From positions 124,001-188,000 of the forward strand of contig QCCP01000002.1 of the NCBI GenBank assembly GCA_003281225.1: a stretch of DNA of 64,000 nt, in the 5' to 3' direction. Source of the DNA: Prochlorococcus sp. AG-347-L20. Its GTDB lineage: Bacteria > Cyanobacteriota > Cyanobacteriia > PCC-6307 > Cyanobiaceae. The notes under the pieces were generated by a model. It saw nothing but the letters and a program-made list of their open reading frames with translations, did not search any database and had not been told where the DNA came from. The position numbers were made by a program, and so were the translations under genes. Of the stretch, positions 12,607 through 14,116 are shown piece by piece (the stretch's first letter is position 1; each line of letters begins with the position of its first letter).

Positions 12607-12615
12607 TGCTAGAAT
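12607..12615 (+). promoter_or_regulatory. Extended -10 promoter element for rpsB
   Basis: The sequence TGCTAGAAT matches the extended -10 pattern TGnTATAAT (TG at 12607-12608, hexamer TAGAAT at 12610-12615). I see no good -35. A start about 7 bases downstream would give a leader of roughly 90 bases, which would include the whole inverted-repeat structure at 12635-12698. Confidence 0.55.
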
Positions 12616-12634
12616 ATTTGAATTAAATTTCACA

Positions 12635-12698
12635 CATCTGACAGTTTCGGGTGAATTATTAATATTAATTCCCCGTCAGATGGAGGCTAACCCGAAAC
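12635..12698 (+). ncRNA. Candidate structured leader (pseudoknot) of the rpsB mRNA
   Basis: Two perfect inverted repeats interlock. Arm A is CATCTGAC (12635-12642) with GTCAGATG (12675-12682); arm B is GTTTCGGGT (12644-12652) with ACCCGAAAC (12690-12698). The order A-B-A'-B' is an H-type pseudoknot. Inside, GAATTA (12653-12658) and TAATTC (12666-12671) form a hairpin that CGGG/CCCG can extend at the cost of helix B, so two exclusive folds exist. The ATG follows 12 bases after helix B. Ribosomal protein leaders often bind their own product; autoregulation by S2 is known for the E. coli rpsB leader and is inferred here. Confidence 0.7.
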
Positions 12699-12710
12699 CC
12701 TTTTTAAATT

Positions 12711-13415
12711 ATGGCTGTTGTATCACTATCAGAAATGATGGAAGCTGGTGCTCATTTTGGGCATCAGACTAGACGTTGGAATCCCAAGATGTCTAAGTAT
12801 ATATATTGCGCGAGAAATGGAGTTCATATTATTGATCTCGTAAAAACAGCATTGTGTATGAACAATGCATATAAATGGACGCGAAACGCCGCAAAAAGCG
12901 GTAAACGTTTCCTATTTGTCGGTACAAAAAAACAAGCATCAGATGTAGTAGCTCAGGAAGCTACACGCTGTGGAGCTGCATATGTAAATCAAAGATGGCT
13001 TGGAGGGATGTTGACTAATTGGACAACAATGAAAGCTAGGATTGAAAGATTAAAGGACCTAGAAAGAATGGAAAGTAGTGGTTCAATAGCGATGAGGCCT
13101 AAAAAAGAAGCTGCAGTATTAAGGAGAGAACTTGAAAGATTACAAAAATACTTAGGTGGACTTAAGGGTATGAGAAGATTACCAGATGTAGTTGTATTGG
13201 TTGATCAGAGAAGAGAATCTAATGCAGTATTAGAAGCTAGAAAATTAGATATCTCACTAGTTTCAATGTTGGATACAAATTGCGATCCGGATTTGTGTGA
13301 AGTTCCAATTCCTTGTAACGATGATGCTGTTAGATCTGTGCAACTTATTTTAGGAAGACTTGCAGATGCCATAAATGAGGGTAGAAAGGGCTCTAATGCC
13401 GAAAGAAAAAATTAA
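12711..13415 (+). CDS. rpsB: Ribosomal protein S2
   Basis: A 234-residue S2 protein of the 30S subunit. Family blocks are clear: [19 protein letters not shown] near the start, [13 protein letters not shown], the [10 protein letters not shown] strand, [11 protein letters not shown], and a late [10 protein letters not shown]-like region ([12 protein letters not shown]) ahead of the [14 protein letters not shown] segment. It is followed after 44 bases by tsf, the near-universal bacterial partner. No Shine-Dalgarno sequence lies at normal distance; the only GGAGG (12682-12686) is 24 bases upstream and within the structured leader. Confidence 0.97.
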
Positions 13416-13459: not shown

Positions 13460-14116
13460 ATGGGAAACATTACAGCAAAACTTGTAAAAGATCTTAGAGA
13501 CAAAACTGGCGCAGGAATGATGGACTGCAAAAAAGCACTTAACGAAACTGAAGGGAATCTAGACAAAGCTTTGGAATGGTTAAGAAAGAAAGGCATAGCT
13601 AGTGCCGAAAAGAAATCGGGAAGAGTAGCGGCCGAAGGGTCAATTGGTAGTTATATTCATACTGGATCAAGAGTCGGAGTTTTACTAGAGTTAAATTGTG
13701 AAACTGATTTCGTTGCTAGAGGTGATATATTCCAATCTCTGTTGAAGGATGTCTCAATGCAAGTAGCAGCATGCCCAAATGTTGAGTATGTATCAATTGA
13801 TGAAATACCTGAAGATGTTGTGGAAAAAGAGAAGCAGATTGAAATGGGTAGGGATGATTTATCTGGAAAACCTGAACAAATTAAAGAAAAAATAGTTGAA
13901 GGGAGAATAGCAAAAAGACTTAATGAGCTTGTTTTGCTTTCACAACCTTACATTAAAGATAGTTCTCTAACTGTTGAGGATCTTGTTAGACAAGCAGCTG
14001 CAAAAATTGGGGAAAATATCAAAGTAAGACGCTTTACAAGATATACATTGGGTGAAGGTATTGAAAAAAATCAGATGGACTTTGCTGAAGAGGTCGCATC
14101 AATGCAAACAAACTAA
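13460..14116 (+). CDS. tsf: Elongation factor Ts
   Basis: A 218-residue nucleotide exchange factor for EF-Tu. The N-terminal UBA-like domain is clear ([21 protein letters not shown]), including the TDFVAR motif near residue 80 ([11 protein letters not shown]) that contacts EF-Tu. It is shorter than E. coli EF-Ts, as is usual for cyanobacteria, and the C-terminus ends soon after the [12 protein letters not shown] stretch. It is probably in one transcript with rpsB. The next gene starts within five bases of its stop. Confidence 0.96.

Follow-up and report, generated by a model that had tools for sequence, protein, structure and literature searches.

Introduction

In E. coli, ribosomal protein S2, helped by S1, represses the translation of rpsB-tsf through the leader of the mRNA, and in the section of PMC10931766 that deals with this leader, the details of the repression are called unclear, since the ribosome binding site lies outside the operator. 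A structured element before rpsB has been described as the 'rpsB motif' (Meyer et al. 2009, PMC2704228). Its rpsB section lists Cyanobacteria among the named carriers, reports a pseudoknot, and gives the helix P2 as absent or very short in Cyanobacteria. As this section describes the motif, names the phylum and reports the pseudoknot, the S2 leader element has been known in kind, and for Cyanobacteria, since 2009. Beyond that paper and reviews, our literature search (a search with most subscription journals outside its scope) returned nothing on the cyanobacterial rpsB leader. Term searches of PMC10989914 and PMC7368042 gave nothing on an rpsB leader, and none of the papers searched treats rpsB together with Prochlorococcus start sites.

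We have analysed the rpsB leader in a stretch of 64,000 nucleotides from Prochlorococcus sp. AG-347-L20, here called the window. An initial annotation of the window had suspected a structured, pseudoknotted leader comparable to that of E. coli rpsB, and was unsure whether a cyanobacterial counterpart had been described; on the latter point it is corrected by the 2009 paper, which has the motif in print with its pseudoknot. With good confidence, we consider the window leader to be the picocyanobacterial form of the S2 leader known from bacteria, the 'rpsB motif' (in E. coli, its counterpart overlaps t44/tff), through which S2 would repress rpsB.

Results

The locus consists of the following features.

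12607..12615, + strand: extended -10 (TGCTAGAAT), conserved; predicted transcript start at about 12621-12623
12631..12634, + strand: conserved CACA box (CnCA) before P1, seen in two cyanobacterial alignments and present in E. coli too
12635..12642, + strand: 5' arm of P1 (helix A of the initial annotation), inverted repeat, with two-sided changes at 7 of 7 tested pairs
12644..12652, + strand: 5' arm of the pseudoknot helix (helix B of the initial annotation), inverted repeat, with a core nearly invariant in cyanobacteria and a fifth pair that covaries across phyla
12653..12674, + strand: variable hairpin P3 inside P1, with a mean z of its loop fold below zero; the GGG/CCC extension of P3 is a possible competitor of the pseudoknot helix in the window's family
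12675..12682, + strand: 3' arm of P1, inverted repeat, with two-sided changes
12683..12689, + strand: joint GAGGCTA, which with the last G of P1 reads GGAGG
12690..12698, + strand: 3' arm of the pseudoknot helix, inverted repeat ending 12 nt before the AUG, with the same comparative basis as the 5' arm
12711..13415, + strand: rpsB, ribosomal protein S2, an ORF whose product is 47% identical to E. coli RpsB
13460..14116, + strand: ORF after rpsB

We observed that the two perfect inverted repeats, of 8 nt (12635-12642/12675-12682) and 9 nt (12644-12652/12690-12698), are exact and interlock in the order A-B-A'-B', as the initial annotation had given them. Its gap of 12 bases between the end of the repeats and rpsB is also correct (from 12698 to the ATG at 12711), and its AT-rich hairpin is present, with the GGG/CCC extension, in the nested minimum-energy fold. 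The ORF at 13460..14116 is presumably tsf (EF-Ts), judging from its sequence and the known rpsB-tsf order, and it is probably in one operon with rpsB.

We reject a chance origin of the interlocked repeats: when the 159-nt region was put through 20,000 dinucleotide shuffles, an interlocked 8+9 pair within 64 nt came up in one of them. The whole real window holds a single interlocked 8+9 site, while 18 of 20 shuffled windows had none and two had one. The folding energy of the lone sequence was only modestly low (z -2.13, with 5 of 200 shuffles folding equally well), and the comparative evidence for the rpsB leader is far stronger than this energy.

An rpsB match was obtained for 121 of the 151 genomes of the genus, for 199 of the 200 of the family and for 286 of the 291 of the phylum. 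The 153 cyanobacterial leaders that were parsed comprise 67 from the genus (from 66 genomes, the window's own genome being counted twice, as the window and as L001), 28 from other genera of the family and 58 from other genera of the class, the last set with one leader per genus. All 153 carry the element, two of them after hand parsing. The alignment A2 holds 88 of 118 distinct segments, the 118 excluding leaders longer than 115 nt and a few misparsed ones, and the covariance model R1, with P1 as its only helix, was built from 88 cyanobacterial leaders.

R1 matches 132 of the 291 phylum genomes at E <= 0.01, with one match per genome, and each match ends about 6-19 nt upstream of rpsB (positions compared by eye). 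Nine class genomes were missed: one is without an rpsB match, and the other eight (L085, L105, L107, L128 and L245-L248) have the element when their leaders are read, with a long P3 or a diverged joint. Among the sampled genomes of the class in which rpsB was matched, 140 of 140 have the element directly before the gene (132 found by the covariance model and 8 by eye), a count that is partly by construction, because many of the surveyed genomes also gave R1 its training leaders. On the window's own genome, R1 had a single strong match, which is by construction (E 6.3e-16), and two further matches no better than expected by chance (E 2.0 and 8.3). We consider the rpsB leader element to be real and ancient, and very probably functional.

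In the 150 phylum genomes of other classes (139 of them not listed by name), R1 gave no match at E <= 0.01. One genome outside the class has a weak match just before rpsB (L140:417-492, 16.9 bits, E 0.013). Three loci from a single non-class family of the same phylum (L144, L145 and L146) share, in the 120 nt before rpsB, the block CTAGTCTGATAGG ... CCCTAGTC ... GTTTAGCCCGTAGTACAATAA and similar; it is unlike the S2 leader of the class, and is either a strongly diverged leader or another element. The pair counts below exclude the loci of other classes, L140-L147, among which L142, L143 and L145 were unparsed, L141, L144, L146 and L147 misparsed, and L140 is the weak match.

We observed changes on both sides at all 7 tested pairs of P1 in A2, so that helix A of the initial annotation is borne out by covariation. 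P1 was paired in 98.9% of 616 cells, as compared to a mean of 83.2% in shuffles, which ignore phylogeny, and at most 45.5% in slid controls. As the leader parser settles on whichever P1 pairing is best, P1 figures taken from parsed leaders are biased in favour of the helix. The hairpin P3 within P1 is variable in length and sequence. Its loop fold had a mean z against mononucleotide shuffles of -2.63 in the genus, -3.01 in the rest of the family and -2.17 in the rest of the class, and loops with z <= -1 numbered 20 of 42, 28 of 28 and 42 of 58, respectively.

This arrangement of a long helix P1 around a variable hairpin is that of the rpsB motif. The same is true of P2, as a single base (12643) separates P1 from helix B in the window; nearly all other cyanobacterial leaders have two to five bases at this place (counted to the 7-base arm). 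The joint, read together with the end of P1, is TGGAGG in 65 of 67 genus leaders and 27 of 28 other family leaders, and GGAGG in 50 of 58 leaders from the rest of the class. Three Colwellia loci (L173, L174 and L175) have ATGAACGC between P1 and the pseudoknot arm in place of the conserved GGAGGC joint.

When we examined the pseudoknot helix, its core GGGU/ACCC was nearly invariant in cyanobacteria (82 distinct rows, with few or no exceptions to the pairing), and the test therefore falls mainly on the next pair, pair 5. At this position, most cyanobacteria have CG; the proteobacteria have GC, TA, CG or AT. When the two phyla are taken together, it is a standard pair in 87 of the 106 distinct arm pairs, as compared to 52.3 after shuffling, with 0 of 2000 shuffles reaching the observed value, and in proteobacteria alone in 40 of 58 as compared to 22.7 (phylogeny ignored). 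Within cyanobacteria, pairs 5 and 6 are slightly above shuffles (47/48 and 45/48; P 0.0035 and 0.0065). Pairs 6-8 in proteobacteria showed no excess over shuffles (69 of 80 leaders parsed, with a parser that required GGGTG and AACC, so that pairs 1-4 are paired by construction), and pairs 7 and 9 in other class members were no better than shuffles. Helix B of the initial annotation thus covaries between cyanobacteria and proteobacteria at pair 5, but not in its outer pairs.

Pair 9 forms in 26 of the 27 distinct family rows, as compared to 16 of 56 others, which indicates that the 9-bp pseudoknot helix is an extension belonging to the window's family. The pairing of the junction stretch with the 3' extension after P1 is again that of the rpsB motif, with the outer pairs unsupported beyond the clade. 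The 3' arm, 12 nt before the AUG in the window, ends 7-15 nt before it across the family.

We also evaluated the window against Rfam, where no model matched at the gathering cut-offs. The only match of the window leader below E 0.3 was t44 (RF00127), which scored 28.5 bits along its entire model, with E 2e-4 in a search of 201 bases and 1.2e-4 in one of 116 bases. With a score under the gathering cut-off of 44 bits, the leader is filed as a relative of the RF00127 leader and not as a member. One of the 13 other family loci gave a t44 match at E <= 1 (L061, 0.071), and none was found at E <= 0.1 in the 291 phylum genomes under strict filters. Among 14 control genomes, E. coli and Thermotoga maritima match t44, one of the two over the cut-off.

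In the reverse direction, R1, which had no E. coli sequence in its training, finds the E. coli S2 leader (25.2 bits, E 6.5e-5 in 69,689 bases), at the right place and over model positions 1-68. The initial reading of the locus as a structured, pseudoknotted counterpart of the E. coli leader is supported. When R1 was run on 80 proteobacterial rpsB leaders, 56 matched at E <= 1 and 40 at E <= 0.01, all of them lying upstream of rpsB and on the same strand, with no match in the rest of the 150 kb; in the remaining 24, nothing was found at E <= 1. In five loci (L215, L226, L227, L228 and L237, from Lysobacteraceae bacterium, Stenotrophomonas, Xanthomonas and Luteimonas), the GGGAGGCCCAACCCCGGAA-type 3' end of the element is found some 90-140 nt upstream of rpsB, and an additional stretch separates it from the rpsB start codon.

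Upstream of the leader, the extended -10 that had been placed at 12607-12615 is there in the sequence, and it is conserved across the class at a near-constant distance. In the 45 nt that precede the CnCA box, TGnTAnnnT was present in all 66 leaders analysed from the genus, in all 28 from the rest of the family and in 53 of 57 from the rest of the class (shuffled means of 3.9, 1.9 and 3.1). Its distance to the box is nearly fixed, mostly 14-20 nt.

The initial annotation had also remarked on the lack of a Shine-Dalgarno sequence at normal distance, and indeed there is no core 4-16 nt before the ATG in the window. Across the parsed leaders, the core is present 4-16 nt before the AUG in 58 of 58 from the rest of the class versus 0 of 95 from the window's family, and in many of the former it lies directly 3' of the pseudoknot arm, for example ACCCGAAUAGGAG. 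This loss is not peculiar to rpsB; SD-less starts are the rule in the window, since only 7 of 56 window ORFs (at least 120 aa) carry a core 4-16 nt before the ATG.

Discussion

By analogy with E. coli, rpsB is likely to be repressed by S2 at the level of its own translation. Transcription would start some 10 nt upstream of the CACA box, and the 5' UTR folds into P1, the variable hairpin P3 within it, and a pseudoknot in which CGGGU after the first arm of P1 pairs with ACCCG just before the start codon. S2 in excess over 30S subunits, perhaps together with S1, would bind the folded leader, as the homology to the E. coli leader suggests. The pseudoknot, bound and stabilised, would then clash with the 30S subunit and block initiation at rpsB, because 12 nt separate its last arm from the AUG, and the footprint of a 30S subunit at the start site takes in this region. 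The repression of tsf would follow by coupling.

The window's family may have a two-state switch as an addition to the S2-leader reading, and not as an alternative to it. Here, the GGG of helix B would pair either with the CCC beside P3, forming one long hairpin with the start site free, or with ACCC, forming the pseudoknot with the start site covered, and S2 or the ribosome would choose between them. We regard such a switch as possible but doubtful. The competing GGG/CCC extension is seen in silico in the nested fold of 46 of 46 distinct genus leaders and 28 of 28 distinct leaders from the rest of the family. The two folds also have similar rough energies in the window: -17.9 kcal/mol for the nested P1..P1' fold, and -10.4 kcal/mol with the pseudoknot arm held open plus -13.0 kcal/mol for the helix B duplex, the latter before any pseudoknot cost. 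However, ten sets of shuffled loops give the extension nearly as frequently (34-43 of 46 and 22-27 of 28), and the invariance of the GGG leaves no room for a covariation test. In the other cyanobacterial leaders, shuffled loops give the extension more often (42-49 of 58) than the real ones do (30 of 58), and as a core mechanism the competing hairpin is thus unsupported outside the window's family. As for the two exclusive folds that had been proposed for this RNA, both are possible in the family, but the competing one is barely above shuffled loops there and is not kept elsewhere.

A more far-reaching scenario, in our estimate an improbable one, is that the window's family carries a Shine-Dalgarno-free variant of the S2 leader in its own right. 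The Shine-Dalgarno that stands after the pseudoknot in other cyanobacteria would have been lost, the pseudoknot would have grown to 9 bp and the competing GGG/CCC hairpin would have arisen, with the switch between pseudoknot and hairpin controlling an SD-independent initiation at rpsB, perhaps with the conserved internal GGAGG as a ribosome standby site.

This conserved leader could have a ligand different from S2 (a second ribosomal protein, the complete 30S subunit or a factor of mRNA stability, for example), as structure alone names no ligand. The kinship of the leader to the S2-responsive leader of E. coli in sequence, structure and position makes this quite unlikely. Transcription attenuation, with helix B and CCCTTTTT as an intrinsic terminator whose formation is controlled by P1/P3, can be set aside as hardly credible: a U-run does follow helix B in the window (12701-12705), but we reject the terminator because this run is not kept in the family, being absent after the same helix in other members (e.g. 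CCCTCAAACCATGG), and moreover the loop of helix B is 37 nt and the sole terminator-like site of the pattern scan falls inside the 5' arms of P1 and helix B.

The S2-leader reading links the window's picocyanobacterium to an element of ribosomal autoregulation that it has in common with E. coli, on a cyanobacterial branch that the Rfam t44 model does not reach. To what was already known, we add a class-wide count, the covariation of the pseudoknot over two phyla, a -10 at a fixed distance, and the variant that lacks a Shine-Dalgarno and has a 9-bp pseudoknot, without claiming that these are absent from print. The SD-less family also lends itself to asking whether the repression by S2 works by masking the Shine-Dalgarno or otherwise, which PMC10931766 calls unclear for E. 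coli as well.

Among known systems, the S15 (rpsO) leader of E. coli, in which a pseudoknot close to the start codon lets a ribosomal protein control the mRNA that encodes it, resembles the window leader in its way of working and not by membership, the sequence and the ligand being unrelated. The rpsB motif, in its section of PMC2704228, shares with the window the place before rpsB, P1, the variable P3, the absent or very short P2, and a pseudoknot in which the stretch before P3 pairs with the 3' extension that follows P1. The text of that section gives five pseudoknot pairs, whereas the window's family has nine, and it mentions neither a missing Shine-Dalgarno nor a competing hairpin. The E. 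coli S2 leader (t44/tff, RF00127) shares the CACA box, an 8-bp P1, the pairing of GGGGUG with AACCCC, and the GUGGAGGC joint, GGAGGC being present in E. coli as well. Two things set it apart from the window leader: a longer insert that separates P1 from the pseudoknot arm, and a Shine-Dalgarno core (GAGG) placed 8 nt upstream of the AUG.
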